Below are positions 1-16,592 of a stretch of DNA of 16,592 nt, piece after piece (within the stretch, counting starts at the first letter, position 1; each line of letters opens with the position of its first letter). The translations under genes were made by a program, and so were the position numbers. This DNA comes from a bacterium (GTDB lineage: Bacteria; Bacillota; Bacilli; Lactobacillales; Streptococcaceae): positions 1-16,592 of the forward strand of contig CAJNBS010000025.1 in NCBI GenBank assembly GCA_905221065.1. Direction: 5' to 3'. The notes under the pieces were generated by a model. The model was not told the origin of the DNA and ran no database searches. It saw nothing but the letters and a program-made list of their open reading frames with translations.

Positions 1-3000
1 GCTGAGGTAGACGCTACAGCGCTAGTACTTGCTGAGGTAGACGCTACCGCACTTGTTGACGCTGACGTAGACGCTACAGCGCTTGTACTTGCTGAAGTAG
101 ACGCTACCGCACTTGTTGACGCTGAAGTAGACGCTACAGCGCTTGTGCTTGCTGATGTTGATGCTACAGCGCTTGTACTTGCTGAAGTAGACGCTACGGC
201 ACTTGTTGACGCCGATGTAGACGCTACCGCACTTGTTGAAGCTGACGTAGAGGCCACAGCGCTTGTTGATGCTGAAGTAGACGCTACAGCGCTTGTTGAT
301 GCTGACGTAGAGGCTACAGCGCTTGTACTTGCTGATGTTGATGCTACTGCACTTGTGCTTGCTGAGGTAGAGGCTACGGCACTTGTTGAGGCTGAGGTTG
401 ATGCTACAGCGCTAGTACTGGCTGATGTAGATGCTACAGCGCTTGTGCTTGCTGATGTAGAGGCTACCGCACTTGTTGATGCTGAAGTAGACGCTACAGC
501 GCTTGTACTTGCTGAAGTAGAGGCTACAGCGCTTGTTGAAGCTGAGGTAGACGCTACAGCGCTTGTACTTGCTGAAGTAGAGGCTACAGCGCTTGTTGAA
601 GCTGAGGTAGACGCTACCGCACTTGTTGACGCTGACGTAGACGCTACCGCACTTGTTGACGCTGACGTAGACGCTACAGCGCTTGTACTTGCTGAAGTAG
701 ACGCTACTGCACTTGTTGACGCTGAGGTAGACGCTACAGCGCTTGTACTTGCTGAAGTAGACGCTACCGCACTTGTTGACGCTGACGTAGACGCTACAGC
801 GCTTGTGCTTGCTGAAGTAGAGGCTACAGCGCTTGTACTTGCTGAAGTAGAGGCTACTGCACTTGTGCTTGCTGAAGTAGACGCTACGGCACTAGTACTT
901 GCTGAAGTAGAGGCTACGGCACTTGTTGAAGCTGAGGTAGACGCTACAGCGCTAGTACTTGCTGATGTTGATGCTACGGCACTTGTTGAAGCTGAGGTAG
1001 ACGCTACCGCACTTGTTGATGCTGACGTAGAGGCTACAGCGCTTGTTGAAGCTGACGTAGAGGCCACAGCGCTTGTTGAAGCTGAAGTAGAGGCTACAGC
1101 GCTAGTACTTGCTGAAGTAGAGGCTACAGCGCTTGTTGAAGCTGAGGTAGACGCTACCGCACTTGTTGATGCTGACGTAGAGGCTACGGCACTAGTACTT
1201 GCTGAAGTAGAGGCTACGGCACTTGTTGAAGCTGAGGTAGACGCTACAGCGCTAGTACTTGCTGATGTTGATGCTACGGCACTTGTTGAAGCTGAGGTAG
1301 ACGCTACCGCACTTGTTGACGCTGAGGTAGACGCTACCGCACTTGTTGATGCTGACGTAGAGGCTACAGCGCTTGTTGAAGCTGAAGTAGAGGCTACAGC
1401 GCTAGTACTTGCTGATGTTGATGCTACAGCGCTTGTTGATGCTGAGGTAGACGCTACCGCACTTGTTGATGCTGACGTAGAGGCTACAGCGCTTGTTGAA
1501 GCTGAGGTAGACGCTACAGCGCTAGTACTTGCTGATGTTGATGCTACGGCACTTGTTGATGCTGAGGTAGACGCTACAGCACTTGTTGACGCTGAGGTAG
1601 ACGCTACCGCACTTGTTGATGCTGACGTAGAGGCTACAGCGCTTGTTGAAGCTGAAGTAGACGCTACGGCACTAGTACTTGCTGAAGTAGATGCTACGGC
1701 ACTTGTTGATGCTGAGGTAGACGCTACAGCGCTTGTGCTTGCTGAGGTAGATGCTACTGCACTTGTGCTTGCTGATGTAGAGGCTACCGCACTTGTTGAC
1801 GCTGACGTAGACGCTACAGCGCTTGTGCTTGCTGAAGTAGACGCTACGGCGCTTGTGCTTGCTGAAGTAGACGCTACAGCGCTAGTACTTGCTGAGGTAG
1901 AGGCTACTGCACTTGTTGACGCCGATGTAGACGCTACCGCACTTGTTGATGCTGACGTAGACGCTACAGCGCTTGTGCTTGCTGAAGTAGACGCTACGGC
2001 GCTTGTGCTTGCTGATGTAGAGGCTACCGCACTTGTTGATGCTGAAGTAGACGCTACAGCGCTAGTACTTGCTGATGTAGAGGCTACAGCGCTAGTACTT
2101 GCTGAGGTAGAGGCTACTGCACTTGTTGAAGCTGAAGTAGACGCTACCGCACTTGTTGATGCTGACGTAGACGCTACCGCACTAGTACTTGCTGAGGTTG
2201 ATGCTACGGCACTAGTACTTGCTGATGTAGAGGCTACCGCACTTGTTGAAGCTGAAGTAGACGCTACCGCGCTTGTTGATGCTGAGGTAGACGCTACCGC
2301 ACTTGTTGACGCTGACGTAGACGCTACCGCACTTGTTGATGCTGACGTAGACGCTACAGCGCTTGTTGAAGCTGAAGTAGACGCTACGGCGCTTGTGCTT
2401 GCTGAAGTAGACGCTACCGCACTTGTTGACGCTGACGTAGACGCTACCGCACTTGTTGACGCTGACGTAGACGCTACAGCGCTTGTTGAAGCTGAAGTAG
2501 ACGCTACCGCACTTGTTGACGCTGAGGTAGACGCTACCGCACTTGTTGATGCTGACGTAGACGCTACCGCACTTGTTGACGCTGAGGTAGACGCTACTGC
2601 ACTTGTTGATGCTGACGTAGAGGCTACTGCACTTGTTGACGCTGAAGTAGAGGCTACTGCGCTTGTGCTGGCTGAGGTAGACGCTACGGCACTTGTTGAC
2701 GCTGACGTAGAGGCTACCGCACTTGTTGACGCTGACGTAGACGCTACTGCACTTGTACTTGCTGAGGTAGACGCTACAGCGCTAGTACTTGCTGATGTAG
2801 AGGCTACTGCACTTGTTGATGCTGAAGTAGACGCTACTGCACTAGTACTTGCTGAAGTAGATGCTACTGCACTTGTTGATGCTGAGGTAGACGCTACAGC
2901 GCTAGTACTTGCTGATGTAGATGCTACTGCACTTGTTGACGCTGAAGTAGACGCTACAGCGCTTGTGCTTGCTGATGTAGAGGCTACCGCACTTGTTGAT

Positions 3001-3668
3001 GCTGAAGTAGACGCTACAGCGCTTGTGCTTGCTGATGTTGATGCTACGGCACTTGTTGAAGCTGACGTAGACGCTACAGCACTTGTTGATGCTGACGTAG
3101 ACGCTACAGCGCTTGTGCTTGCTGATGTTGATGCTACTGCACTTGTTGACGCTGACGTAGACGCTACTGCACTTGTGCTTGCTGACGTAGATGCTACAGC
3201 GCTTGTGCTTGCTGAGGTAGACGCTACCGCACTTGTGCTTGCTGAGGTTGAGGCTACCGCACTTGTGCTTGCTGAGGTAGACGCTACTGCGCTTGTTGAA
3301 GCTGACGTAGACGCTACTGCACTTGTTGACGCTGACGTAGACGCTACTGCACTTGTTGATGCTGACGTAGACGCTACGGCGCTTGTGCTTGCTGAGGTAG
3401 ACGCTACCGCACTTGTTGATGCTGAGGTAGACGCTACAGCACTAGTACTTGCTGACGTAGACGCTACCGCACTTGTTGATGCTGACGTAGACGCTACGGC
3501 GCTTGTGCTTGCTGACGTAGACGCTACTGCACTTGTTGATGCTGACGTAGACGCTACGGCGCTTGTGCTTGCTGAGGTTGAGGCTACCGCACTTGTTGAT
3601 GCTGAGGTAGACGCTACAGCACTTGTTGACGCTGAAGTAGACGCTACAGCGCTTGTTGACGCACTTTG
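1..3668 (-). repeat. SRR2 decapeptide array of adhesin B (at least 122 units of 30 bp)
   Basis: The array is a perfectly phased tandem array of 30-bp units, read on the minus strand as SASTSAVAST with almost only synonymous differences. Six of ten residues are Ser/Thr, potential O-glycosylation sites, and Val recurs once per unit. No insertion, deletion or stop disturbs the phase. Longer units have also been copied: 901-1019 is repeated at 1201-1319, and the 60 bp from 511 recur from 571. The array continues past the left edge, so its full length and the wall anchor are not visible. Confidence 0.96.
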
Positions 3669-6600
3669 TGATCTGTAATCCGAGTCAGATAAATTAGGCT
3701 TAAATATATCCGTCGTATCATCTTCATAGGTAACTGTGACCGTACCATCTCTACCTACAGAGACAGTTTTTATCTGCATGTTAGGATTCGCATCTTCAAT
3801 AGCCTTGCGAATCTTTTCCTTATCAGCTTCTGTTGGTGTAGTAAGATTTTCCACCTGAATTACTGGGGAAGCTGGAGTATATTTCTCACTCAACGGAGCT
3901 TGTATAATGACATACTTTTCAGCCTTTAAATTGCCAGACAAATCTTTAACCCTTGCAAAACGTGTCCAGACATTGGGTGTATCATCATCATTATCTGGTG
4001 TTGCAGTATTAGTATAATCTTTTCTTGGATTAAATACCTGATTAGCATTATAAGTTCCATCACTCGTTAAATTATGAGTATAAGGCTGTGCTTGAGACGC
4101 ATCTGTTAATTTATTTGTTCTTTGATCAGCAATCCCTCCTGTAGAATGATCAATTACATTTCTTGTAACATATTTCAACTGCTCACTAGTCTCATTGTTC
4201 CAAGCTTCTATATGAGTAACTTTTCCACTATTATCCCAAGTTTCAACTCTGACACGGAACTGATCACCCGCATAGATTTTATTTCTTCCCTGTGAATCTT
4301 TAGGAGCATCTACCCACACGCCATCACGAAGAACTTGAACCTTAACAGTAACATTCGGTGCTTCTGTTTCCTTAGTAATCGTACCAGAACCTGGCTCTGA
4401 AGTTAACACTTCAGTTGTATTTGGTCCTGCTGGCACACTTTGAGTCGCAGTTACATTAGGTACAGTACTTGAAGGAAGAAGACCATTATTTGTATCATAG
4501 ACTTTTTGCAATTCGTCAGCAGTAAAGGTTACACTTGTAGCATTTGTTGGAACTTGCTTTTTAAAGGTTTGGTTCCCTACTGTCAAGGTTACAGTTGCAC
4601 CTGGAAGAACATTAGTTACCGTGATGGTTTGATTTGGCAAGCCTCCACGTCCAGTTAGATTTTCAACAACTGGTTGGTTAACTTCCATTGCCAATTCTGA
4701 GAGTGGTTTGATACGAGATTGACCATCTTTATAGGTAATCTTAGCATTAGTTCCTTCGAAGGTAACTTCCTTGATACGGTCTTTTTCTTTTTGTGTAGCT
4801 GTATCATGGGCATTCTTGATGGATTCTACAATGCTTGTTTTTTCCGGATCTGTCAAAGTAGACAGACTTGTAACTTTAATCTTCTTATCAGGATTCAAGT
4901 TAGCATTTTTTACTGCTAAATCACCTTGCACAAGTTTAAATGTATTTCCTACTGACTCATTTCCTGCAACATCTGTAGCTGTAATCGCACGATTCGCAAA
5001 ATTTCCGGTGCGGTATTGAAGTTCTTCTTTGACTTTCCCCTCTGCAACTAGGCTAGCTGGATTGGTAGCTGAGGCATCTGTAATAGAAGCAATATTGGAT
5101 ACAATTGCTGTTCCAAAAGCGTCATCCAAAGCATTTCCATTCGGAACCTTCTTTCCGTCAGAGCCACCTATTTTAATCTCTGTTTTGTTTATATAGTTAC
5201 TATTGTCAGTGGCTGATGTTGTAAATCTAATTTGGTCACCAGCATAAAAAGTATATACTGGATTTCCACCTGAAATCGTCTTAGGAGCTTCTACCCATTG
5301 ATCAGTCGCTTTATTGTAAATTTCTACAACTGTATTCGCTACTGGCCTAATCGTCTCAGGGGTAATATTGACACCTGTACTTTCAGCAGATGGGGTTGTA
5401 ACGCCATTAGAATCCGTAACATTAGCTGTAGCTGTTACACTGCCTCTGGCTGGCAATACATTCAAACCAAGTTCTGCAGGAGTTACTGTCAGTTCAGTTG
5501 CACCTGCTGGCTTATCGACTGTATAAGTTTCATTTCCGATTTTAATCGTAACAGACGTTGCTTTTGGTTCAATATTTGTAATCGTAATGTTCTTGGCAAG
5601 ACCACCTTGATCTGTCAAATCATTTGTAACCGTTGGAGCTTTTGGTTTAGCAATATCTGCCACCTTGAGTGTACGACTAGTTCCATCTTTATATTGGATA
5701 GTTACAAGGTCACCACTAAATGAAATATTGCCAATTCTGCCATCAACACCATGTGCGTTCTCGATATTAGTCTTAAGAGTCGCTTTTTCTGTCTCTGTTG
5801 GATTACTTAGATCATTTACTGTTGGCTTTTCAGTTGGATTGAGATTTGCATTTCTTTCTGCTAAACTCCCTTGTACAAGTTTAAATGTATTTCCTACTGA
5901 CTCATTTCCTGCAACATCTGTAGCTGTAATCGCACGAGTCGCAAAAATTCCGGTGCGGTATTGAAGTTCTTCTTTGACTTTCCCCTCTGCAACTAGGCTA
6001 GCTGGATTTGTAGTTGAGGCATCTGTAATAGAAGCAATATTGGATGCAATTGCTTCTCCAAAAGTATCATCCAAAACATTTCCATTTCGAACCTCGCTAC
6101 CTCCATCACTCCCTTTTCTAACCGTCGTTCTCTTGATATAGTTACTATTGTCTGTGAAGGTTGTGGTAAAGCGAAGTTCATCACCTGCATAGAAGGTATA
6201 TTCTGGTAGATTATTTGCGGTTCCTGTTGGAACTAATTTCCACTTGCCAGTCGCTGGGTCTTTTACTTCTACAAGAGTACTTGCTACTGGTCTTTCTGTT
6301 TCCTTCGTGATAGTTACAGGGTCACTTACTGTTGACTCAAGAAAAGTACCTGCTGGCTTACGAGAATCTTGCGCAGCAACCTTAGCTGTTACTGTTCCAG
6401 TTGCAGGCAATACACCATCGTCCAAACCAAGTTCAGTTGGTGTAACAGTTACACTAGATGTCCCTGCTGGAATATCCTTAGTGACAGATTTATTCCCCAC
6501 TGTTACTGTAACCTTAGTTGCCTGTGGGTCAATATCTGTTACCGTAATAGACGTTGGCATACCACCTTCTTCAGTCAAATTCTTAGTAACTGTAGGGGTG

Positions 6601-9600
6601 CTTGGACGAGCAACAATCGTTACCATATCATTTTGAATGTTCCCACGTCCATCTGTTGCCGCGAAGGCATAATTTTCATAAGTTCCGACTTTACTAATCG
6701 TTCCACGTAAATTAGCAGACATTGTCTTATCCGCATTCACATGTTTATTTTCCAACGATAGCGAACCATTTTCTGGTGGAATTGGAACAAATGCCAAACC
6801 GTTTAATGATTTAATACCTGAATTACCTGTTTCATTATCTGAAGCTGTAATTGCTAAATCGACAGAATCTCCTGCAACTATGTCAATTCGTTTATTGGCT
6901 GGAACTCCTGTAATAACTGGTTTAATTGCATCAGGTGTAGAAGTTGCAGGGGCACTGCTTTCAGAAGATAAGGTTCCCTTGTTATTTGGTAAGGTCACAT
7001 TTGTCTTAGCTACATATGAACCAGCCTGAACATTTGGAACAGTAATCGTTGCTTTCCCGTTTGAAACTGTACCTGTGTGGCTTGTATTGTTTGGCCCCTG
7101 AAGGGTAACTGTTGAACCGTTTGGAATGTTTGATCCGACGTTAACTACGACATTCGCTCTCTGTCCAACTGTATTGTCAAGATTTGTTTCAATTGTTGGA
7201 GGAGCTGGATTAACAGCAACAGTAACAGTTTTCTCAGTTGTATTGCCAACCGCATCTGTAGCCGTCACCTTAACGTTTTCATAAAGCCCAATTTTTGAAG
7301 GAGTACCTGTCAAAGTAGTTGACATAGAACCGTCATTGTTTTTAACAGCTTTGCTTGCTGTCAAAACATTGTTAAAGTTTGTAGTCGATTTATCAAGGTT
7401 GGTTCCTGTAGACTTACTTGCATCATAAGTAATGGCCTTCATGCCTGAATTACCAGTTGTCGCATCAGAAGCTGACAAGCGGACATTAGCTGGTTGTCCA
7501 ACGGTCAAATTGATTCGTCCGTTGTTATCACCTGCTGTAATAACAGGTCCAGTCTTATCAATATTAATTGCGCGAACTGTATTACTATAATCAGACTCAA
7601 CAGATGTCTTAGTGGCTCCACTTCTATCTCTATATTCTGGCTGTCCATCAACTACCGTTTGAGCCTTGTAGTCTGCATTGTTTTTTAAGGTAACATTACG
7701 GAAGGTCACTTGACCGTTATTATCAGCCGTTGCCTCTTGGATTTTTGTTCCATTTTCATATAGGTAAACTTTCTTACCAGGAGTAGCGTTTTCAACTTGA
7801 ATATCTTGTTGTTCCTTACCTTCAACTAACTTATTGGTAATTTTCGGAGTATAAGGCTTAACGATAAACTGAGTATCTACATCTTTTGTTGTATTATCAG
7901 GGAAAGTTACATGTAGCTTATTGTTAAAGACCCCTGGAGTGCGTCCAACTTCCCTCTTCTCGATAGTTCGACCGTTAGAATCTCTCCACTCTATCTGTGA
8001 GCCAGCAGGCAACTTCCCACTACTCCAGTCATTGGTTCCCTTTTTCACCAAGTACTGGTTCGGATCCGTAAAGGCTTGGTTTGTATCGTTATTTGAATAC
8101 CACCATTTCAATTTTGCATTATTATAGCTACTGGTATTATACGGTTCTTCCACTTGGTTAACAAAATATTTCCCACCTTGTGCTGCGGCTAGTGGATAAG
8201 CTTGTTCGTAGCTCATCCCAAGAGGATTGGTGTGGAGCCCCACCGTTGCAAAGGTCGTACCTGGTGAGCCTACACCAAATAACAGTTTCATATTTTTTAT
8301 TTGCTCAGGAGTAACACCTGGTTTTACTCTTGTTTCAAAGCGTGTTACGTTTACTTCACTTTGCGTTCCACCGATATTAACCGTTTGCCAAATAGTACGT
8401 GGGTCTGAAACACGCGGAACGATTGCTGGAGAAATTTCGTTCCATATAGGGCGTTTATACTCGTCATTATTATCAGATAAAGCTTTTAGCAAGTTTTTGG
8501 ATTCATCTGGATGATAGAGAGAAACAAAGCCTTGACTTCCATTTGCAAACTGACCTCTATCATATGTTGCTGTCCCCTGTTTAGCAAATCCATCATTACC
8601 ACCTGCAACAGTCTCACCAAATTTATCCGGCAAGCTAAGCGGATTTGACTTATCAACAGGAAGGTTAGCGAAATTCAGATTTGGTTTTTCTGTTGTACTT
8701 GTTATTAGATTTTTATAACCTGTCGTGACAATAGTATCAGGCATCTCTAGCTGGTCTGGAACCTGCATCCACTTAATCACATTAGTATAACCACGATTCG
8801 TAAGCGGATTTGCAATCAGTGTCCAAATGATAGAGGTTACTTTACCATTTGCATCATATACAGGCTCCGATGCAACAGCCACGTGATCTCTCAAATGATT
8901 TTGTGCAGAATCATTATAACCAGATACGTAAGATTTTAAGTTTTCGCCATTTTCACGATTCTCGTTAGCCACTCCTACCGCACGTGAACCAACCTGTGTA
9001 TTAATGGCACGAGGCTGTGCCCCTCTCTCCATCTGTCTACCATTTAGCACACTACGTTTACCGTTGCTAGCACGAAGGACAGCGTTGACGATTGAGTTTT
9101 GCGCAGACGTAGCTTGCTTGATAACATCTGTCAAGTCAGCATTTGGATTTTTAAGAGCTTCTTCGATAGCTGTTACAGCAGCATTAACCTTAGCAACAGC
9201 TGATTCCGTATTTGGCAGACCGATAGACTTAGCGAGGTATTCACCCATAGTCGCTGAGATTTTAGACAGACGTTTGCGGTCTTCTTGAGCTTTTTTGTCG
9301 CTCTCAGCAGATACTGTTGTCGCTACAGCAGCTGTTGTCGTTGTATCTACCAAACTTGAAGTCGTTGAGGTGATTTGACTCAAACGAGTTTCAACTGCTT
9401 GTAGAGATGCGAGGCTATCAGTGATAACTTTTGAAAGAGCCGCATCAGCTGTCGCGTTAGCTGCATCTTCCTTACGAACAGATGTCTCTTTGTTTGAAGC
9501 TGTTTCTGATGCTACTGGTTTTGCCAGTTCAGAAGTTACTCCAGCTTGTGATTGAGAAGCACTTGTTGAGGCTGACTCAGATGCACTTGTACTTGCACTT

Positions 9601-10121
9601 GCAGAAGCAGATGTACTTGCTGATACAGAAGCACTTGTTGAAGTACTTACTGATTGGCTTTCACTTTCTGAAAGATGCTTACTTGCATTCTTGGAAGCTT
9701 CCTCAGACAAGGATTGGCTTTGGCTGACAGAAATTGATAAGCTGTCGGCTTGAGCCCCCTCCTGATCTTTTACTGTTCCCAAAGTTACTGTGTCTGTATT
9801 TGCAAGTGTTTGATTTGACTCTACTGTCTTTTCAAGAGCATCGTTGGCATAAACAGTTGTTTGTGTTGCAACCGCTCCTCCAAGTACCGTCCCTGCTGCG
9901 GCTAGCCCTTTCAGGATATCCAATCCTGTTAGTGTATTTGCTGATTGCTCTTCGATAACTTCAGTTGTTACCTGAGCAGCATCTACACCACCACGCAAGA
10001 CTTTAAAGAGACCAAATTGAGAGGTCGAGGCACGCAACCAATGCTTACCCGACTTGATCAACTTGAAACGGGTCACACGATCCGTCTCTCTATATTCACC
10101 TTCTTGGCGTCTAAAAAACAT
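1..10121 (-). CDS. Serine-rich-repeat surface adhesin B with tandem Siglec-like domains, 3' end beyond left edge
   Basis: This is a cell-wall SRR glycoprotein adhesin, expected to bind host sialoglycans; 3,373 complete codons are visible and the frame is open at the left edge, so the wall anchor is not seen. I translated the non-repeat part and spot-checked phase at several points from 10121 to 3663; I found no stop or frameshift. Approximate order: residues 1-91 long signal peptide with KLIKSGKHW at 20-28 (KxxKxGKxW type) and a likely cut after VYA; SRR1 127-192; Ala-rich helical segment 205-375; unrecognised domain 385-660; Ig/cadherin-like domains 757-1172; three Ig+Siglec+Unique modules 1173-2145; SRR2 from about 2149. 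The start is set by the AGGAAGG site and by the MFFRRQ opening typical of SRR adhesins. Export by accessory Sec and O-glycosylation are inferred from the family. The binding region, about 1,950 residues, is very long. It does not resemble the PsrP binding region as I remember it; the architecture is nearer to GspB/Hsa/SrpA, with extra modules. Confidence 0.95.
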   Translation of the reverse strand, partial: MFFRRQEGEYRETDRVTRFKLIKSGKHWLRASTSQFGLFKVLRGGVDAAQVTTEVIEEQSANTLTGLDILKGLAAAGTVLGGAVATQTTVYANDALEKTVESNQTLANTDTVTLGTVKDQEGAQADSLSISVSQSQSLSEEASKNASKHLSESESQSVSTSTSASVSASTSASASASTSASESASTSASQSQAGVTSELAKPVASETASNKETSVRKEDAANATADAALSKVITDSLASLQAVETRLSQITSTTSSLVDTTTTAAVATTVSAESDKKAQEDRKRLSKISATMGEYLAKSIGLPNTESAVAKVNAAVTAIEEALKNPNADLTDVIKQATSAQNSIVNAVLRASNGKRSVLNGRQMERGAQPRAINTQVGSRAVGVANENRENGENLKSYVSGYNDSAQNHLRDHVAVASEPVYDANGKVTSIIWTLIANPLTNRGYTNVIKWMQVPDQLEMPDTIVTTGYKNLITSTTEKPNLNFANLPVDKSNPLSLPDKFGETVAGGNDGFAKQGTATYDRGQFANGSQGFVSLYHPDESKNLLKALSDNNDEYKRPIWNEISPAIVPRVSDPRTIWQTVNIGGTQSEVNVTRFETRVKPGVTPEQIKNMKLLFGVGSPGTTFATVGLHTNPLGMSYEQAYPLAAAQGGKYFVNQVEEPYNTSSYNNAKLKWWYSNNDTNQAFTDPNQYLVKKGTNDWSSGKLPAGSQIEWRDSNGRTIEKREVGRTPGVFNNKLHVTFPDNTTKDVDTQFIVKPYTPKITNKLVEGKEQQDIQVENATPGKKVYLYENGTKIQEATADNNGQVTFRNVTLKNNADYKAQTVVDGQPEYRDRSGATKTSVESDYSNTVRAINIDKTGPVITAGDNNGRINLTVGQPANVRLSASDATTGNSGMKAITYDASKSTGTNLDKSTTNFNNVLTASKAVKNNDGSMSTTLTGTPSKIGLYENVKVTATDAVGNTTEKTVTVAVNPAPPTIETNLDNTVGQRANVVVNVGSNIPNGSTVTLQGPNNTSHTGTVSNGKATITVPNVQAGSYVAKTNVTLPNNKGTLSSESSAPATSTPDAIKPVITGVPANKRIDIVAGDSVDLAITASDNETGNSGIKSLNGLAFVPIPPENGSLSLENKHVNADKTMSANLRGTISKVGTYENYAFAATDGRGNIQNDMVTIVARPSTPTVTKNLTEEGGMPTSITVTDIDPQATKVTVTVGNKSVTKDIPAGTSSVTVTPTELGLDDGVLPATGTVTAKVAAQDSRKPAGTFLESTVSDPVTITKETERPVASTLVEVKDPATGKWKLVPTGTANNLPEYTFYAGDELRFTTTFTDNSNYIKRTTVRKGSDGGSEVRNGNVLDDTFGEAIASNIASITDASTTNPASLVAEGKVKEELQYRTGIFATRAITATDVAGNESVGNTFKLVQGSLAERNANLNPTEKPTVNDLSNPTETEKATLKTNIENAHGVDGRIGNISFSGDLVTIQYKDGTSRTLKVADIAKPKAPTVTNDLTDQGGLAKNITITNIEPKATSVTIKIGNETYTVDKPAGATELTVTPAELGLNVLPARGSVTATANVTDSNGVTTPSAESTGVNITPETIRPVANTVVEIYNKATDQWVEAPKTISGGNPVYTFYAGDQIRFTTSATDNSNYINKTEIKIGGSDGKKVPNGNALDDAFGTAIVSNIASITDASATNPASLVAEGKVKEELQYRTGNFANRAITATDVAGNESVGNTFKLVQGDLAVKNANLNPDKKIKVTSLSTLTDPEKTSIVESIKNAHDTATQKEKDRIKEVTFEGTNAKITYKDGQSRIKPLSELAMEVNQPVVENLTGRGGLPNQTITVTNVLPGATVTLTVGNQTFKKQVPTNATSVTFTADELQKVYDTNNGLLPSSTVPNVTATQSVPAGPNTTEVLTSEPGSGTITKETEAPNVTVKVQVLRDGVWVDAPKDSQGRNKIYAGDQFRVRVETWDNSGKVTHIEAWNNETSEQLKYVTRNVIDHSTGGIADQRTNKLTDASQAQPYTHNLTSDGTYNANQVFNPRKDYTNTATPDNDDDTPNVWTRFARVKDLSGNLKAEKYVIIQAPLSEKYTPASPVIQVENLTTPTEADKEKIRKAIEDANPNMQIKTVSVGRDGTVTVTYEDDTTDIFKPNLSDSDYRSQSASTSAVASTSASTSAVASTSASTSAVASTSASTSAVASTSASTSAVASTSASTSAVASTSASTSAVASTSASTSAVASTSASTSAVASTSASTSAVASTSASTSAVASTSASTSAVASTSASTSAVASTSASTSAVASTSASTSAVASTSASTSAVASTSASTSAVASTSASTSAVASTSASTSAVASTSASTSAVASTSASTSAVASTSASTSAVASTSASTSAVASTSASTSAVASTSASTSAVASTSASTSAVASTSASTSAVASTSASTSAVASTSASTSAVASTSASTSAVASTSASTSAVASTSASTSAVASTSASTSAVASTSASTSAVASTSASTSAVASTSASTSAVASTSASTSAVASTSASTSAVASTSASTSAVASTSASTSAVASTSASTSAVASTSASTSAVASTSASTSAVASTSASTSAVASTSASTSAVASTSASTSAVASTSASTSAVASTSASTSAVASTSASTSAVASTSASTSAVASTSASTSAVASTSASTSAVASTSASTSAVASTSASTSAVASTSASTSAVASTSASTSAVASTSASTSAVASTSASTSAVASTSASTSAVASTSASTSAVASTSASTSAVASTSASTSAVASTSASTSAVASTSASTSAVASTSASTSAVASTSASTSAVASTSASTSAVASTSASTSAVASTSASTSAVASTSASTSAVASTSASTSAVASTSASTSAVASTSASTSAVASTSASTSAVASTSASTSAVASTSASTSAVASTSASTSAVASTSASTSAVASTSASTSAVASTSASTSAVASTSASTSAVASTSASTSAVASTSASTSAVASTSASTSAVASTSASTSAVASTSASTSAVASTSASTSAVASTSASTSAVASTSASTSAVASTSASTSAVASTSASTSAVASTSASTSAVASTSASTSAVASTSASTSAVASTSASTSAVASTSASTSAVASTSASTSAVASTSASTSAVASTSASTSAVASTSASTSAVASTSASTSAVASTSASTSAVASTSASTSAVASTSASTSAVASTSASTSAVASTSASTSAVASTSASTSAVASTSASTSAVASTSASTSAVASTSASTSAVASTSASTSAVASTSASTSAVASTSASTSAVASTSASTSAVASTSASTSAVASTSASTSAVASTSASTSAVASTSASTSAVASTSASTSAVASTSASTSAVASTSASTSAVASTSASTSAVASTS
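3687..4679 (-). other. Module 3: Ig-like + Siglec-like + Unique domains, canonical motif WTRF (residues 1815-2145)
   Basis: The Ig-like part begins NQPVVENLTGRGG. The Siglec-like part starts near residue 1922 (APNVTVKVQVLRDGVW), contains IYAGDQFRVRV and DNSGKVTHIEAW, and has W2052-T2053-R2054-F2055 in VWTRFARVKDLSGN, a good fit to the hydrophobic-T-R-x sialoglycan motif. The Unique part (LTTPTEADKEKIRKAIEDAN...DGTVTVTYEDDT) abuts SRR2. This is the position, next to SRR2, where the Siglec+Unique pair sits in known SRR adhesins, so module 3 is the likeliest functional binding domain. Confidence 0.75.
4680..5648 (-). other. Module 2: Ig-like + Siglec-like + Unique domains, motif degraded to ANRA (residues 1492-1814)
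   Basis: The same three-domain order as module 1, offset by 315 residues: Ig-like part (KAPTVTNDLTDQGG), Siglec-like part from RPVANT (residue 1592) with YTFYAGDQIRF and DNSNYIN, and Unique part ending AKITYKDGQSR. The strand F motif is A1709-N1710-R1711-A1712, so the Thr of the sialic-acid motif is Asn. The DNA around the motif is almost identical to module 1. The domain may have lost or changed its ligand. Confidence 0.68.
5649..6605 (-). other. Module 1: Ig-like + Siglec-like + Unique domains, motif ATRA (residues 1173-1491)
   Basis: The Ig-like part begins PSTPTVTKNLTEEGG; the Siglec-like part begins at RPVAST (residue 1277), contains YTFYAGDELRF and DNSNYI, and carries the F-strand sequence FATRAITATDVAGN with A1394-T1395-R1396-A1397. 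The Unique part ends with the strand pair ...VTIQYKDGTSR. In GspB/Hsa-type Siglec-like domains the hydrophobic-Thr-Arg-x motif on strand F contacts sialic acid. Here T and R are present, but the usual aromatic before Thr is Ala and the residue after Arg is also Ala. Sialic acid binding is therefore possible but uncertain. Confidence 0.68.
5875..6006 (-). repeat. 132-bp block shared by Siglec modules 1 and 2 (second copy 4930-5061)
   Basis: The two copies, 945 bp apart, differ only at 5938/4993 (g versus t) and 5947/5002 (a versus t). Beyond the block similarity continues with more substitutions to about 6090/5145. Both differences change amino acids: T1395 versus N1710 and I1392 versus N1707. 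The rest of the modules is much more diverged, so the block looks like gene conversion or a young duplication. Confidence 0.85.
6606..7853 (-). other. Ig-like and cadherin-like beta domains of adhesin B (residues about 757-1172)
   Basis: Four domains of roughly 90-120 residues can be separated by internal similarity. The first (PKITNKLVEGKEQQDIQV...) and third (PPTIETNLDNTVGQ...GSTVTLQG) look like bacterial Ig domains of the Big_6 type. The second and fourth resemble each other: PVITAGDNNGRINLTVG with LSASDATTGNSGMKAI, and PVITGVPANKRIDIVAG with ITASDNETGNSGIKSL. Each of these ends in a SKIG/SKVG...YEN...ATD.xGN strand. Their alternation suggests duplication of a two-domain unit. Such domains usually act as spacers in streptococcal adhesins; no binding motif was seen. 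Confidence 0.6.
8142..8969 (-). other. Unrecognised N-terminal domain of adhesin B binding region (residues about 385-660)
   Basis: About 275 residues follow a helical, Arg-punctuated segment (GKRSVLNGRQMERG near residue 360). The stretch is rich in aromatic and Asn/Gly residues, for example IIWTLIANPLTNRGYTN, QGFVSLYHPDE, RPIWNEISP and GTTFATVGLHTNPLG. It reads as a folded, beta-rich globular domain rather than stalk. I do not recognise the family. By position, first folded domain after SRR1, it could be a second ligand-binding domain distinct from the Siglec modules; that is inference only. It is followed by a short segment (GVFNNKLHVTFPDNTTKD, residues about 725-745) with the look of a Rib/Ig-like strand pair. 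Confidence 0.5.
9546..9743 (-). repeat. SRR1, short Ser-rich repeat region of adhesin B (residues 127-192)
   Basis: This segment directly follows the mature N-terminus and is Ser-dominated: it starts irregularly (SVSQSQSLSEEASKNAS) and becomes a regular SAST/SASESAST pattern before ending in SQSQAG. In SRR adhesins a short SRR1 normally separates the signal peptide from the binding region and is glycosylated like SRR2. Its units use SASAS/SASES without the regular Val found in SRR2, so SRR1 was not copied recently from the long array. Confidence 0.88.
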
Positions 10122-10131
10122 ATTTTAGATT

Positions 10132-10138
10132 CCTTCCT
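10132..10138 (-). promoter_or_regulatory. Ribosome binding site of adhesin B
   Basis: AGGAAGG on the minus strand ends 10 bases before the ATG at 10121-10119. It fits the Gram-positive Shine-Dalgarno sequence and fixes the start that opens the long signal peptide. Confidence 0.85.
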
Positions 10139-10151
10139 ACTTATATTTATG

Positions 10152-10180
10152 TGTATTTGGCAATAAAATACCAATATACA
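10152..10180 (-). promoter_or_regulatory. Imperfect inverted repeat across the predicted transcription start
   Basis: On the minus strand TGTATATTGG (10180-10171) and CCAAATACA (10160-10152) form an inverted repeat with one unpaired A and a 10-bp centre. It overlaps the end of the -10 and the predicted start, where a repressor site could lie. In AT-rich DNA it could also be chance. Confidence 0.28.
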
Positions 10181-10208
10181 TTATACACTTTAGATGCAAG
10201 TAATTCAA
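10180..10208 (-). promoter_or_regulatory. Sigma-A-type promoter of adhesin B
   Basis: On the minus strand TTGAAT (10208-10203) and TATAAT (10185-10180) are separated by exactly 17 bp. The -10 is a perfect consensus and the -35 matches four of six. The predicted start near 10173 gives a leader of about 50 nt containing the ribosome site. Adhesin B can therefore be transcribed independently of adhesin A. Confidence 0.72.
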
Positions 10209-10231
10209 TAAGTTTTAAAACATTTTTACCT

Positions 10232-10242
10232 AAAAAAAAAAA
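10232..10242 (-). promoter_or_regulatory. Run of 11 T upstream of the adhesin B promoter
   Basis: An uninterrupted homopolymer (A11 on plus, T11 on minus) lies 23 bp upstream of the -35 hexamer. It could act as an UP-like A/T tract, and runs of this length are prone to slippage. Any regulatory role is inference. Confidence 0.35.
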
Positions 10243-10595
10243 GTATTTTATATGGATATTATAGGTGGGTATGCTGCTTTTTATAAATATTAGAAAAATG
10301 ACAATTTTAAGCACTTTCAAAGGAGTACAGTCCAAATTTTAAGCGTTTTTATGTTTCTTAATTACGAAATATTAAATTTTTGTTACAGGTTTTCCGAATA
10401 CAATTCCACGATAAATTTTTAAAATAGTTTAATTTATAACAAATTTGTTTTGCTTGAATTTTAATAATATACTAATTATATCGTATTTTACATAAGCACT
10501 TTTGGATGTCTCCGATATGAATAATACAGCGGTTTCATTTTATAATTATTTATAGAATGTTTCGTTCGTATGATATCTTTATCTCTATTTATTAA

Positions 10596-10807
10596 ACTCT
10601 TCGAAAATCTCTTCAAACAAGCTCAGCTTGGTCTCACTATTTGTATGGTTTAGACCGAGCAGAAAGTCTTTAAAACAATAAAAGCGCATCGTATAAAGCC
10701 TTAAAAAAACTTGATGTTCTGCGTTCTTATTGTGGAAAACCTACCACATTTTCAACTAAAATTCAGTTTTTGACCAACCTCTATACATTTTTTGATTTTT
10801 GTTGAGT
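10596..10807. mobile_element. MITE-like element with imperfect terminal inverted repeats
   Basis: The left end ACTCTTCGAAAATC (10596-10609) and the complement of the right end, ACTCAACAAAAATC (10807-10794), match in 11 of 14 positions. The left end continues TCTTCAAAC, which from memory is the edge of a short repeat very common between genes in S. pneumoniae and S. mitis. The interior has no reading frame but holds a hairpin (gcttggtct at 10626-10634 with agaccgagc at 10652-10660). The interior has drifted from the version I remember, so identity is uncertain. Confidence 0.42.
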
Positions 10808-11011
10808 ATATAAATAAGCTATCCATAACCTGCAAAAACTTCCTTAGCCTATTTTTAAAGTAAAGATAAGGTATTTACTTTCAACTGTTGATCTTTTAGG
10901 ATTTCTTATACAACGAACCCGCTTCAAAGATTAAATCAAAGGTAAGGTCTCGGATCCATCTGTCGATTTTATCTACTAATTATCCAATTAATAGGAATAT
11001 TTTAGAAGCTG

Positions 11012-11049
11012 CAGTCTAGTATTTTAATTTCAGTCTAGTATTTTAATTT
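11012..11049. repeat. 19-bp perfect tandem duplication in the intergenic region
   Basis: CAGTCTAGTATTTTAATTT occurs at 11012-11030 and again at 11031-11049, followed by a partial third copy (caatcta) to 11056. No gene is here; it looks like a simple slippage duplication. Confidence 0.8.
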
Positions 11050-11250
11050 CAATCTATTACAAGTTCCAAAATCGCATATATTTTCTTTATATATTGGGAA
11101 TAAGCGAATAACAAAAGTTGCCCAATTTCAACATATAGTTCCACCAGGAAGCTTCTTGAATAGGATTCTAGCAACAAAAATGAGACTATTTTACATTAGT
11201 ATAGTTGTCAGCTGTGGTGTACTATTCTAATTTCATTCTACAACAAAATA

Positions 11251-11306
11251 AAAAAGTGAACGAAACAGAATTCTGATTTACAGAAAACTAGTTTTGTTCA
11301 CTTTTT
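11251..11306 (-). terminator. Intrinsic terminator of adhesin A
   Basis: The arms 11251-11266 and 11291-11306 are complementary in 15 of 16 positions, the exception being a G-T type pair; the loop is 24 bases. On the minus strand the second arm runs into CACTTTTTTATTTTG, giving a U-rich tail. It lies about 75 bp after the TAA, so readthrough from adhesin A into adhesin B should be limited. Confidence 0.82.
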
Positions 11307-11380
11307 CTTATGATCGAAACTTCTGTTCCATTCACTTTTCAATCATCTATCCACAGATAAATCTGCTCCAGAAAGATTGT

Positions 11381-14300
11381 TTACATTTCTTCTTCATCAT
11401 CACGTTTGCGACGTTTCGCAATCAGACCTAGACCTGTTACAGCGGCTAAAGCTCCTAGAAGTGCAGATGTTTTGGATACTTCTGTACCTGTATTTGGCAG
11501 TTGTTGTCTTGACTTAGATGTAGATTCCGTACCATTTCCTACGTGTGAAGTCGAATGTTCAACATTTGATTCTACAAGCGAGCGCGACGTTGTGGCACTA
11601 TCAGAAATTGCATCTGAAAGTGACGTACTTGTTGAAGTCGACATAGACATCGAAGTTGAGACTGACATACTTAGACTTGTTGACGCTGAGGTAGACGCTA
11701 CCGCACTTGTTGACGCTGAAGTAGAGGCTACGGCGCTTGTGCTTGCTGAGGTAGACGCTACAGCACTTGTTGACGCTGAGGTAGAGGCTACTGCGCTTGT
11801 GCTTGCTGAGGTAGACGCTACAGCGCTAGTCGATGCTGACGTAGACGCTACTGCGCTAGTCGATGCTGAGGCAGACGCTACGGCACTTGTTGATGCTGAC
11901 GTAGACGCTACGGCGCTTGTGCTTGCTGAGGTAGACGCTACAGCACTTGTTGATGCTGAGGTAGAGGCTACGGCGCTTGTGCTTGCTGACGTAGACGCTA
12001 CGGCACTTGTTGACGCTGAGGTAGACGCTACGGCGCTTGTTGATGCTGAGGTAGAGGCTACCGCACTTGTGCTTGCTGAGGTAGATGCTACAGCACTTGT
12101 GCTTGCTGAGGTAGACGCTACAGCACTTGTTGATGCTGACGTAGACGCTACCGCGCTTGTGCTTGCTGACGTAGATGCTACAGCGCTAGTTGATGCTGAG
12201 GTAGAGGCTACGGCACTTGTTGATGCTGACGTAGACGCTACGGCACTTGTTGACGCTGATGTAGACGCTACAGCACTAGTCGATGCTGATGTAGATGCTA
12301 CCGCACTTGTTGATGCTGACGTAGAAGCTACCGCACTTGTTGATGCTGAGGTAGACGCTACGGCGCTTGTGCTTGCTGAGGTAGACGCTACGGCGCTTGT
12401 TGATGCTGATGTAGATGCTACAGCGCTTGTGCTTGCTGAGGTAGACGCTACAGCGCTAGTCGATGCTGACGTAGATGCTACGGCGCTAGTCGATGCTGAC
12501 GTAGACGCTACCGCACTTGTTGATGCTGATGTAGAGGCTACAACGCTAGTACTTGCTGAGGTAGACGCTACTGCACTTGTTGATGCTGATGTAGAAGCTA
12601 CCGCACTTGTTGATGATGATGTAGAGGCTACGGCGCTAGTCGATGCTGATGTAGACGCTACAGCGCTTGTGCTTGCTGAGGTAGATGCTACTGCACTTGT
12701 GCTTGCTGACGTAGATGCTACGGCGCTAGTCGATGCTGACGTAGACGCTACCGCACTTGTTGATGATGATGTAGAGGCTACGGCGCTAGTACTTGCTGAG
12801 GTAGACGCTACTGCGCTTGTTGATGCTGATGTAGACGCTACTGCGCTTGTGCTTGCTGAGGTAGACGCTACAGCGCTTGTGCTTGCTGATGTAGAGGCTA
12901 CCGCACTAGTACTTGCTGAGGTAGATGCTACTGCGCTTGTTGACGCTGATGTAGATGCTACGGCACTTGTTGATGCTGATGTAGATGCTACCGCACTTGT
13001 GCTTGCTGAGGTAGACGCTACGGCACTTGTTGATGCTGATGTAGATGCTACGGCGCTTGTTGACGCTGACGTAGAGGCTACGGCACTTGTTGACGCTGAC
13101 GTAGACGCTACCGCACTTGTTGACGCTGATGTAGACGCTACCGCACTTGTGCTTGCTGAGGTAGACGCTACGGCACTTGTTGATGCTGATGTAGAGGCTA
13201 CAGCGCTTGTGCTTGCTGAGGTAGACGCTACGGCACTTGTTGATGCTGATGTAGACGCTACGGCACTTGTTGATGCTGATGTAGAGGCTACAGCGCTAGT
13301 ACTTGCTGACGTAGAGGCTACGGCGCTAGTCGATGCTGACGTAGACGCTACTGCGCTTGTGCTTGCTGAGGTAGATGCTACTGCACTTGTTGATGCTGAT
13401 GTAGACGCTACGGCACTTGTTGATGCTGATGTAGAGGCTACAGCGCTAGTACTTGCTGACGTAGAGGCTACGGCGCTAGTCGATGCTGACGTAGACGCTA
13501 CTGCGCTTGTGCTTGCTGACGTAGATGCTACGGCGCTAGTCGATGCTGACGTAGACGCTACCGCACTTGTTGATGCTGATGTAGAGGCTACTGCGCTAGT
13601 ACTTGCTGAGGTAGACGCTACTGCACTTGTGCTTGCTGAGGTAGACGCTACAGCGCTTGTGCTTGCTGATGTAGATGCTACAGCGCTTGTGCTTGCTGAT
13701 GTAGAGGCTACTGCACTTGTTGATGCTGATGTAGAAGCTACCGCACTTGTTGATGCTGATGTAGACGCTACTGCACTTGTTGATGCTGATGTAGAAGCTA
13801 CCGCACTTGTTGATGATGATGTAGAGGCTACGGCGCTAGTCGATGCTGATGTAGACGCTACAGCGCTTGTGCTTGCTGAGGTAGATGCTACTGCACTTGT
13901 TGATGCTGAGGTAGATGCTACAGCGCTTGTGCTTGCTGAGGTAGACGCTACTGCACTTGTTGATGCTGATGTAGACGCTACAGCACTTGTTGATGCTGAG
14001 GTAGACGCTACGGCACTTGTTGATGCTGAGGTAGAGGCTACCGCACTTGTTGACGCTGATGTAGAGGCTACAGCGCTTGTGCTTGCTGATGTAGAAGCTA
14101 CCGCACTTGTTGATGCTGATGTAGAGGCTACTGCGCTTGTGCTTGCTGATGTAGAGGCTACAGCGCTAGTACTTGCTGATGTAGAAGCTACCGCACTTGT
14201 TGATGCTGAGGTAGATGCTACCGCACTTGTGCTTGCTGAGGTAGACGCTACGGCACTTGTTGATGCTGATGTAGAGGCTACTGCGCTTGTTGACGCTGAC

Positions 14301-16592
14301 GTAGAGGCTACGGCACTTGTTGACGCTGACGTAGACGCTACCGCACTTGTTGACGCTGATGTAGACGCTACCGCACTTGTGCTTGCTGATGTAGAGGCTA
14401 CAGCGCTAGTACTTGCTGATGTAGATGCTACGGCACTTGTTGATGCTGATGTAGATGCTACAGCGCTTGTGCTTGCTGATGTAGACGCTACAGCGCTTGT
14501 GCTTGCTGATGTAGACGCTACGGCACTTGTTGAGGCTGATGTAGATGCTACGGCGCTAGTCGATGCTGACGTAGACGCTACTGCGCTTGTGCTTGCTGAC
14601 GTAGATGCTACGGCGCTAGTCGATGCTGACGTAGACGCTACCGCACTTGTTGATGCTGATGTAGAGGCTACAGCGCTTGTGCTTGCTGATGTAGACGCTA
14701 CAGCGCTAGTACTTGCTGAGGTAGATGCTACAGCACTTGTTGATGCTGACGTAGATGCTACAGCACTTGTTGATGCTGATGTAGAGGCTACTGCGCTTGT
14801 TGACGCTGACGTAGAGGCTACGGCACTTGTGCTTGCTGAGGTAGAAGCTACGGCACTTGTTGATGCTGAGGTAGAAGCTACCGCACTTGTTGATGCTGAT
14901 GTAGATGCTACTGCGCTAGTACTTGCTGACGTAGATGCTACGGCACTTGTTGATGCTGACGTAGACGCTACAGCGCTTGTTGACGCTGACGTAGACGCTA
15001 CTGCGCTTGTGCTTGCTGATGTAGACGCTACTGCGCTTGTGCTTGCTGACGTAGAGGCTACAGCACTTGTGCTTGCTGAGGTAGAGGCTACGGCACTTGT
15101 TGATGCTGAGGTAGATGCTACCGCACTTGTGCTTGCTGAGGTAGACGCTACGGCACTTGTTGATGCTGATGTAGAGGCTACTGCGCTTGTTGACGCTGAC
15201 GTAGAGGCTACGGCACTTGTTGACGCTGACGTAGACGCTACCGCACTTGTTGACGCTGATGTAGACGCTACCGCACTTGTGCTTGCTGATGTAGAGGCTA
15301 CAGCGCTAGTACTTGCTGATGTAGATGCTACGGCACTTGTTGATGCTGATGTAGATGCTACAGCGCTTGTGCTTGCTGATGTAGACGCTACAGCGCTTGT
15401 GCTTGCTGATGTAGACGCTACGGCACTTGTTGAGGCTGATGTAGATGCTACGGCGCTAGTCGATGCTGACGTAGACGCTACAGCGCTTGTGCTTGCTGAC
15501 GTAGATGCTACGGCGCTAGTCGATGCTGACGTAGACGCTACCGCACTTGTTGATGCTGATGTAGAGGCTACAGCGCTTGTGCTTGCTGATGTAGACGCTA
15601 CAGCGCTAGTACTTGCTGAGGTAGATGCTACAGCACTTGTTGATGCTGACGTAGACGCTACAGCGCTTGTGCTTGCTGATGTAGAGGCTACAGCGCTTGT
15701 GCTTGCTGATGTAGAGGCTACAGCGCTTGTGCTTGCTGAGGTAGACGCTACTGCGCTAGTACTTGCTGATGTAGACGCTACGGCACTTGTTGATGCTGAT
15801 GTAGACGCTACTGCGCTAGTACTTGCTGATGTAGACGCTACGGCACTTGTTGATGCTGATGTAGAGGCTACCGCACTTGTTGATGCTGATGTAGATGCTA
15901 CAGCGCTTGTGCTTGCTGATGTAGACGCTACGGCACTTGTTGATGCTGATGTAGAGGCTACAGCGCTAGTACTTGCTGAGGTAGACGCTACGGCACTTGT
16001 TGATGCTGATGTAGAAGCTACAGCGCTAGTACTTGCTGACGTAGATGCTACGACGCTAGTCGATGCTGACGTAGACGCTACAGCGCTTGTGCTTGCTGAG
16101 GTAGAGGCTACGGCACTTGTACTTGCTGATGTAGAGGCTACAGCGCTTGTGCTTGCTGAGGTAGACGCTACTGCGCTAGTACTTGCTGATGTAGACGCTA
16201 CGGCACTTGTTGATGCTGATGTAGACGCTACTGCGCTAGTACTTGCTGATGTAGACGCTACGGCACTTGTTGAGGCTGATGTAGATGCTACGGCGCTAGT
16301 CGATGCTGACGTAGACGCTACAGCGCTTGTGCTTGCTGACGTAGATGCTACGGCGCTAGTCGATGCTGACGTAGACGCTACCGCACTTGTTGATGCTGAT
16401 GTAGAGGCTACAGCGCTAGTACTTGCTGAGGTAGACGCTACGGCACTTGTTGAGGCTGATGTAGATGCTACGGCGCTAGTCGATGCTGACGTAGACGCTA
16501 CAGCGCTTGTGCTTGCTGACGTAGATGCTACGGCGCTAGTCGATGCTGACGTAGACGCTACCGCACTTGTTGATGCTGATGTAGAGGCTACA
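11381..16592 (-). CDS. Serine-rich-repeat surface adhesin A, C-terminal part with LPNTG anchor; 5' end beyond right edge
   Basis: This is the C-terminal 1,736 residues of a second SRR adhesin. From the right edge to about 11680 the frame is an uninterrupted SASTSAVAST-type array (about 1,640 residues). A less regular Ser/Thr/Met hinge (STSMSMSTSTSTS) and a non-repetitive linker follow. Then come LPNTG (11486-11500), a hydrophobic segment (SALLGALAAVTGLGLIA), KRRKR and an acidic tail DDEEEM before TAA at 11381-11383. That is a complete sortase A sorting signal, so the product should be covalently wall-anchored with a glycosylated stalk. No stop or phase change occurs in the array; every unit is a multiple of 30 bp. 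Scattered substitutions include Ala to Val at about 12542 and 16052, and Thr to Ala near 11868. The start, signal peptide and binding region are outside the window, so ligand and type are unknown. It lies upstream of adhesin B on the same strand and ends in its own terminator. Confidence 0.94.
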   Translation of the reverse strand, partial: VASTSASTSAVASTSASTSAVASTSASTSAVASTSASTSAVASTSASTSAVASTSASTSAVASTSASTSAVASTSASTSAVASTSASTSAVASTSASTSAVASTSASTSAVASTSASTSAVASTSASTSAVASTSASTSAVASTSASTSAVASTSASTSAVASTSASTSAVASTSASTSVVASTSASTSAVASTSASTSAVASTSASTSAVASTSASTSAVASTSASTSAVASTSASTSAVASTSASTSAVASTSASTSAVASTSASTSAVASTSASTSAVASTSASTSAVASTSASTSAVASTSASTSAVASTSASTSAVASTSASTSAVASTSASTSAVASTSASTSAVASTSASTSAVASTSASTSAVASTSASTSAVASTSASTSAVASTSASTSAVASTSASTSAVASTSASTSAVASTSASTSAVASTSASTSAVASTSASTSAVASTSASTSAVASTSASTSAVASTSASTSAVASTSASTSAVASTSASTSAVASTSASTSAVASTSASTSAVASTSASTSAVASTSASTSAVASTSASTSAVASTSASTSAVASTSASTSAVASTSASTSAVASTSASTSAVASTSASTSAVASTSASTSAVASTSASTSAVASTSASTSAVASTSASTSAVASTSASTSAVASTSASTSAVASTSASTSAVASTSASTSAVASTSASTSAVASTSASTSAVASTSASTSAVASTSASTSAVASTSASTSAVASTSASTSAVASTSASTSAVASTSASTSAVASTSASTSAVASTSASTSAVASTSASTSAVASTSASTSAVASTSASTSAVASTSASTSAVASTSASTSAVASTSASTSAVASTSASTSAVASTSASTSAVASTSASTSAVASTSASTSAVASTSASTSAVASTSASTSAVASTSASTSAVASTSASTSAVASTSSSTSAVASTSASTSAVASTSASTSAVASTSASTSAVASTSASTSAVASTSASTSAVASTSASTSAVASTSASTSAVASTSASTSAVASTSASTSAVASTSASTSAVASTSASTSAVASTSASTSAVASTSASTSAVASTSASTSAVASTSASTSAVASTSASTSAVASTSASTSAVASTSASTSAVASTSASTSAVASTSASTSAVASTSASTSAVASTSASTSAVASTSASTSAVASTSASTSAVASTSASTSAVASTSASTSAVASTSASTSAVASTSASTSAVASTSASTSAVASTSASTSAVASTSASTSAVASTSASTSAVASTSASTSAVASTSASTSAVASTSSSTSAVASTSASTSAVASTSASTSAVASTSASTSAVASTSASTSAVASTSSSTSAVASTSASTSAVASTSASTSVVASTSASTSAVASTSASTSAVASTSASTSAVASTSASTSAVASTSASTSAVASTSASTSAVASTSASTSAVASTSASTSAVASTSASTSAVASTSASTSAVASTSASTSAVASTSASTSAVASTSASTSAVASTSASTSAVASTSASTSAVASTSASTSAVASTSASTSAVASTSASTSAVASTSASTSAVASTSASTSAVASTSASTSAVASTSASTSAVASASASTSAVASTSASTSAVASTSASTSAVASTSASTSAVASTSASTSAVASTSASTSAVASTSASTSLSMSVSTSMSMSTSTSTSLSDAISDSATTSRSLVESNVEHSTSHVGNGTESTSKSRQQLPNTGTEVSKTSALLGALAAVTGLGLIAKRRKRDDEEEM
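11682..16592 (-). repeat. SRR2 decapeptide array of adhesin A (at least 163 units of 30 bp)
   Basis: The same SASTSAVAST decapeptide as in adhesin B, in continuous 30-bp phase through to the right edge. Its codon choices differ from the left array: the plus-strand string agtcgatgct is frequent here and I saw none in the left array, whereas gctgaagtag and gatgttgatgct are common on the left and nearly or wholly absent here. A few units carry replacements, such as S-T-S-S-S near 12613, 12753 and 13813. Large segmental duplications occur towards the right end. Confidence 0.96.
14193..14755 (-). repeat. 563-bp segment duplicated at 15093-15655 within the adhesin A array
   Basis: Line-by-line comparison shows 14193-14755 and 15093-15655, offset 900 bp, to be identical apart from one base (14582 t versus 15482 a). 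Adjacent units differ from each other at many synonymous sites, so this match is well above the background similarity of the array. It marks a recent in-frame duplication of about 30 units. Smaller copies of the same material occur further right: 15721-15853 matches 16141-16273, and 16261-16410 matches 16441-16590. Confidence 0.85.

Follow-up and report, generated by a model that had tools for sequence, protein, structure and literature searches.

The binding region of adhesin B, an accessory-Sec serine-rich repeat (SRR) adhesin encoded by a Streptococcus mitis-like bacterium of the mouth, is probably built as a rod from three Siglec-like lectin modules, each of them complete, and diversified by cassette exchange, and all three modules most likely bind sialoglycans. 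The gene lies in a stretch of 16,592 nucleotides (GenBank assembly GCA_905221065.1, contig CAJNBS010000025.1, positions 1 to 16,592), which we call the window. The rod would be displayed between the two serine-rich repeat regions of the adhesin, SRR1 and SRR2, and each module would consist of an Ig domain specific to its position, then an exchangeable Siglec domain, whose strand F bears the sialic-acid arginine, and last a Unique domain.

Three Siglec-like modules in series

Residues 1173-2145 of adhesin B (window 6605-3687) form three consecutive Ig-Siglec-Unique modules, whose lengths, as delimited, are 323, 318 and 332 residues (Table 1). Structure models of modules 1 and 2, with a mean pLDDT of 92, match solved Siglec+Unique structures, and module 3 was assigned by sequence to SK1 (6vs7; 5.4e-18) and Hsa (6efc/9q5f). 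When scanned alone, modules 1, 2 and 3 matched the Siglec-like family PF20164 at E values of 1.7e-06, 6.6e-06 and 0.00037, and aRib at 0.00068, 3.2e-05 and 1.4e-14, the latter on the part called Unique in the literature; four of these six matches fall below Pfam's curated cut-off, and the fold-search lists for the modules were dominated by one domain family. An earlier note on this DNA had proposed three such modules in series, and the coordinates, the family matches and the models of modules 1 and 2 bear this out. Its reading of the strand F motifs, ATRA in the first module, ANRA in the second and WTRF in the module nearest SRR2, also stands. The note had made its proposal depend on the fold of modules 1 and 2 and on where their TR/NR lies: the predicted folds are those of Siglec+Unique structures, and TR/NR falls on strand F, where a profile alignment lines it up with the TR of the Hsa motif YTRY and with the SrpA motif.

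For comparison, residues 1173-2145 were used as a query; of 7988 candidates scored, which were those sharing most words, 73 proteins matched at E 1e-5. In 34 of them (P0002-P0035) three modules are contiguous and spaced 313-341 residues apart, matches of less than 100 bits having been dropped in module assignment, and together with the window these make up a set of 35 three-module proteins. The remaining 39 have one or two strong modules, save P0040, which has three that are non-contiguous and was excluded from the counts. Sources are named for five of the 34 (three Streptococcus mitis and two Streptococcus sp.). A module match at 1e-10 was found in 44 of 147 species-level Streptococcus genomes; with the window's own three-module protein as query, 9/284 genomes matched at 1e-60, one of them (G268) over the whole length, at most three candidates being scored per genome.

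The motif arginine is invariant at all three positions

The motif Arg is kept in 105/105 modules of the three-module set, that is, in 35/35 at each position. It is among the 11 of 135 occupied Siglec columns that are invariant over all 105 modules; two others hold the Glu and the Pro of the hinge TKETE-P. The motif Thr is present in 35/35, 34/35 and 25/35 proteins at positions 1, 2 and 3. Modules at position 1 begin the motif with A, L or M and those at position 2 with A, E or V; at position 3 it begins with W in 31 proteins and with I in 4. In the homologues, positions 1 and 2 usually carry ATRS-like motifs, the ANRA of module 2 is a singleton at its position (1/35), and Asn replaces Thr at position 3 as well, as WNRG in 6/35. 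The earlier note saw in these motifs a graded loss, which the counts do not support: Arg is complete at every position, and Thr is least conserved at position 3, not at 1 or 2. A non-aromatic first residue (A, L, M, E or V) is usual at positions 1 and 2 in the homologues and is not decay particular to this copy.

A comparison for the arginine comes from the Ig-like domains that these proteins carry immediately upstream. They were located by a D-x-x-G-N signature, two in 23 proteins and one in 12, and at the equivalent letter they have Val in 35, Tyr in 23 and Arg in 0/58, so the Ig-like fold alone does not require Arg. In P0055, a homologue outside the 35, one module has Gln for Arg (WTQF), and Arg is therefore not absolute in the wider family.

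Evidence for exchange of Siglec domains in a largely position-locked frame

The three kinds of domain differ in how closely they follow module position. At 60% identity, the Ig domains of the 35 proteins fall into three clusters, one per position, and so do the Unique domains, with the window's own Unique 3 standing alone. The Siglec domains form one cluster of 18 position-1 and 35 position-2 domains, and six types at position 3. Between proteins, position-1 and position-2 domains are at most 0.53 identical for Ig and 0.51 for Unique, and up to 0.84-0.86 for the Siglec halves. Position labels change four times on the Siglec tree and twice each on the Ig and Unique trees, all of these being quick trees built without a mixture model, with support values not inspected. 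The 35 proteins combine three types at position 1 with six at position 3 in 12 different ways, including all four pairings of A/B with C/E, C/F and C/G. Mean identity at position 1 is 0.52-0.61 for Siglec domains versus 0.77-0.80 for Ig/Unique, and at position 2 it is 0.69-0.72 versus 0.82-0.85.

A near-identical tract in modules 1 and 2

Modules 1 and 2 of the window have in common a tract of 212 nt with 95.3% DNA identity, compared with 58.6% outside it, and its score was reached in 0/2000 codon shuffles. The module pairs 1-3 and 2-3 of the window show no comparable tract (374/2000 and 421/2000 codon shuffles). At the protein level, identity between modules 1 and 2 is 0.90 in the Siglec C-half, 0.50 in the N-half, 0.51 in Ig and 0.42 in Unique. 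Whole-module duplication was rejected as the source of this likeness, only the Siglec C-half being alike. The module-1 C-half is nearest to module 2 of its own array (0.90), whereas the module-1 N-half comes closest to modules at position 1 in other proteins (0.78). From these sequences, the tract was likely copied from module 2 into module 1, a direction that is not certain given P0009, which has the same C-half type at position 1 (0.84 to the window's module-1 C-half).

A second case was found in genome G117, where two neighbouring modules share 408 nt at 91.9% identity, compared with 67.9% elsewhere (0/2000 shuffles); their Siglec domains are 85-90% alike and their Unique domains 62%. Copying between modules is no universal rule, as the three-module gene of G268 (L058) shows none. 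In-frame stops lie within the module arrays of L056 (G117 C5) and L055 (G161 C15), and decay or sequencing error is possible in both.

The module-3 cassette and its junction

The Siglec and Unique domains of module 3 appear to have been exchanged as one piece with a different adhesin. Over 730 nt (window 4379-3650), running into SRR2, they are 95.2% identical in DNA to an adhesin of S. mitis SK608 that is built differently from adhesin B. Identity per block steps from 47-67% just upstream to 91-100%, with the break at residue 1915-1923 in the hinge TKETEAP. At the protein level, Siglec and Unique of module 3 are 94% identical to the SK608 adhesin and 91-96% to six further proteins (P0041-P0046), and their identity to the third modules of other three-module proteins does not exceed 0.49 for the Siglec halves and 0.46 for Unique. 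Ig3 belongs to the three-module family, with 85-90% identity to its eight best matches.

SK608 has tandem SRR genes in the same order; the cassette lies in the first gene, and the second gene has another architecture. The stretch upstream of adhesin B and into its N-terminus is 88.9% alike in SK608 and the window over 1484 nt. In SK608 (L031) the first SRR gene (4963-14736) ends within repeats, and a stretch like the C-terminus of adhesin A, the SRR adhesin upstream of adhesin B, follows in a separate frame (16620-16982), a split that could reflect a frameshift or a repeat assembly error. G001/G171, equated with SK608 because their match coordinates coincide, gave ten matches to Siglec-like modules at the thresholds applied, scattered among several large open frames of one genome, and 13 with PF20164.

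Proposed working of the array and alternative explanations

We propose that all three modules would bind sialoglycans and, one Siglec half being almost the same in modules 1 and 2 and module 3 being of a different type, that one glycan might be held bivalently and a second through the SRR2-proximal module. Caution is due here because modules 1 and 2 have an identity of only 0.50 in the Siglec N-half, so that their selectivity may still differ. The CD, EF and FG loops are reported to set selectivity in Siglec-like domains (PMC9117288), and some of the pocket, for instance the CD loop, may lie in the N-half. Tandem modules are described as giving avidity or a division of labour (PMC7586212). Specificity would shift by recombination along two routes. 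Within one array, the Siglec part would be copied from module to module; between adhesins, a Siglec(+Unique) cassette would be traded with other SRR proteins, with the conserved hinge TKETE-P as the point of exchange. Such exchange may serve receptor change. We put at about even the chance that the Siglec domain, joined at position 3 by its Unique domain, acts as a specificity cassette that can be exchanged within a largely fixed Ig/Unique frame, and that S. mitis in this way builds combinatorial multi-lectin arrays and changes receptors through recombination, beyond point mutation.

Several observations weigh against this account. Neither ATRA nor ANRA conforms to the strict phi-TRX motif, in which phi is Trp, Phe or Tyr and X is Tyr, Thr, Glu, His or Lys according to PMC7586212; module 2 has no Thr, and WTRF of module 3 satisfies phi-TR but has Phe as X, and so also departs from the strict form. 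FapC has been reported to bind without needing its Arg (PMC7846122), and conservation of Arg is therefore no proof of function. The 35 three-module proteins are 90%-identity clusters and not independent, P0013-P0017 being near copies. In 17 of the 34 homologues (P0006, P0008, P0021-P0035) the Siglec C-halves of modules 1 and 2 are 22-29% identical, a likeness that, judged from the sequences, would be no more than old divergence. The G117 tract is unlike that of the window: it stops short of strand F and covers the last part of the Ig domain. The Ig domain of the first module there lies mostly beyond the in-frame stop and thus outside the comparison, and partial module duplication could account for the likeness. 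There is no tract between any two modules of the G268 gene. At the DNA level, the account draws on two cases of within-array likeness and one of cassette exchange with a distinct adhesin. Unique 3 of the window was exchanged with its Siglec domain, and Unique domains are therefore not absolutely fixed.

The earlier note left two possibilities for the differing motifs: multivalent binding, which we favour, and retirement of modules 1 and 2 to spacers, which we disfavour. As spacers they would lift one working module, and only module 3 with WTRF would bind. Their lack of the aromatic first residue of phi-TRX, and the Asn for Thr in module 2, would fit retirement, but the Arg and Thr counts at positions 1 and 2 given above speak against it, and the Siglec domains there are more diverse than the flanking Ig/Unique domains while keeping Arg throughout, unlike idle spacers. 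SK1 modules without Arg are reported to bind (PMC7586212), and Siglec1 of AsaA is described with the motif GTRY (PMC7846122). On this evidence, retirement seems unlikely. There is a small but appreciable chance that modules 1 and 2 keep their pocket and bind another ligand, either a different class of sialoglycan or a non-sialylated glycan, which would make the array hetero-specific. The stability of ATRS/LTRQ/ETRS types at positions 1 and 2, next to W in 31/35 at position 3, suggests such a division; the residue reported as essential for sialic acid in other members (PMC7846122), Arg, is nevertheless invariant here.

The traces of recombination could also be artefacts, with both the tract in modules 1 and 2 and the junction in module 3 produced by assembly of repeats or mixing of strains. 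The window does end within repeats on both sides. However, the two tract copies differ at about 5% of sites, patterns of domain-wise exchange recur among the other 34 three-module proteins and in genome G117, and the module-3 cassette is whole in SK608 and in P0041-P0046, and we regard an artefact as very unlikely. Sialoglycan binding by all three modules, with exchange of their Siglec domains, remains our preferred explanation; the invariant Arg at three positions makes the clear prediction that each module binds, and the triple array offers a natural test of avidity versus mixed specificity within one protein.

Relation to known adhesins

SRR Siglec-like adhesins, tandem pairs of modules, and a triple in the non-SRR protein AsaA of S. 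mitis B6 are already known. Among the closest parallels is the SK1 adhesin of Streptococcus sanguinis (PDB 6vs7), which like adhesin B is an SRR protein with tandem Siglec+Unique modules and non-canonical motifs. Its two tandem domains are reported to have divergent motifs and both to bind, with different selectivity, although SK1 also fails the strict phi-TRX motif. It differs in having two modules with no Ig between them, and motifs YTKY and YTFK without Arg, whereas Arg is present in all three modules of adhesin B (PMC7586212). FapC of S. oralis subsp. dentisani is likewise described as an SRR adhesin with Siglec and Unique domains, but has two modules and Arg in the first only (PMC7846122, PMC7586212). 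GspB, Hsa and SrpA share the Siglec+Unique fold and the F-strand TR motif with adhesin B, but are each described with just one Siglec domain and a Unique domain after it (PMC7846122). The view of the earlier note that one or two Siglec-like domains are known holds for GspB and SrpA, with one each, but is too narrow in that three modules are reported in AsaA of S. mitis B6. AsaA (S. oralis / S. mitis B6) is reported with two modules, and in S. mitis B6 with a triple as in adhesin B, and differs in being described with a FIVAR/CBM domain and DUF1542 repeats and as not a serine-rich repeat protein (PMC7846122). Neither FIVAR/CBM nor DUF1542 was matched when residues 1-2174 of adhesin B were scanned against Pfam with E values of up to 10 admitted, and the rest of the visible frame is SRR.

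In the open-licence PMC literature searched, the coverage of which is partial, we found no SRR adhesin described with a triple array and no account of exchange between Siglec modules. Domain shuffling of whole binding regions and recombination were suggested earlier in general terms only (PMC9117288 for recombination), and that 2022 study described how these adhesin sequences change in evolution as not known, with recombination likely (PMC9117288). What is new here is the recombination history of the Siglec domains in adhesin B, of which the DNA tract and the sharp cassette junction are direct traces.

Adhesin B and neighbouring features

Table 1. Features of adhesin B in the window, with residue numbers of the protein.
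Feature	Window coordinates	Strand	Residues	Basis or detail
Adhesin B, accessory-Sec SRR adhesin	3..10121	minus		Open frame, TIGR04224, KxYKxGKxW signal
Module 1, Ig + Siglec + Unique	5637..6605	minus	1173-1495	Model, fold comparison, family scan
Siglec-like domain of module 1	5868..6305	minus	1273-1418	
F-strand motif ATRA, module 1	5931..5942	minus	1394-1397	Model strand E221-229; register with Hsa YTRY
Near-identical tract, module-1 copy (Siglec C-half with strand F)	5875..6086	minus	~1346-1416	95.3% identity
Module 2, Ig + Siglec + Unique	4683..5636	minus	1496-1813	Model, fold comparison, family scan
F-strand motif ANRA, module 2	4986..4997	minus	1709-1712	Model strand E221-229
Near-identical tract, module-2 copy	4930..5141	minus	~1661-1731	95.3% identity
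Module 3, Ig + Siglec + Unique	3687..4682	minus	1814-2145	Sequence match, family scan
F-strand motif WTRF, module 3	3957..3968	minus	2052-2055	
Exchanged Siglec+Unique cassette of module 3	3687..4379	minus		Boundary near residue 1915-1923 in TKETEAP; SK608 DNA identity

Adhesin B starts with ATG at 10121 on the minus strand, and its 3' end is cut by the window inside SRR2. The N-terminus matches TIGR04224 (3.9e-19) and, in the family scan, PF19258 (5.9e-09), and has a KxYKxGKxW-type signal. SRR1 is a Ser-rich stretch near residues 124-200 and SRR2 a repeat array with a period of 30/60 nt (window 1-3659), so the binding region is flanked by a short and a long repeat region, as in SRR adhesins. 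An LPxTG anchor is carried by the homologue P0004; the visible frame of adhesin B stops before the end of SRR2.

Between SRR1 and the triple array lie about 800 residues (369-1172; window 6606-9017), in which no solved structure was matched by sequence at E 0.01. Within them, a stretch of 370 residues (391-760) has BLASTP matches in 52/74 sequences compared with the window and is possibly a further binding region. Directly upstream of adhesin B is a second SRR adhesin, adhesin A (16591-11381, minus), of which SRR2 and a C-terminal LPNTG anchor region are visible. The long open frames antisense to the serine-rich repeats, at 145-3678 (+) and 11406-16592 (+), are a by-product of repeat codons.

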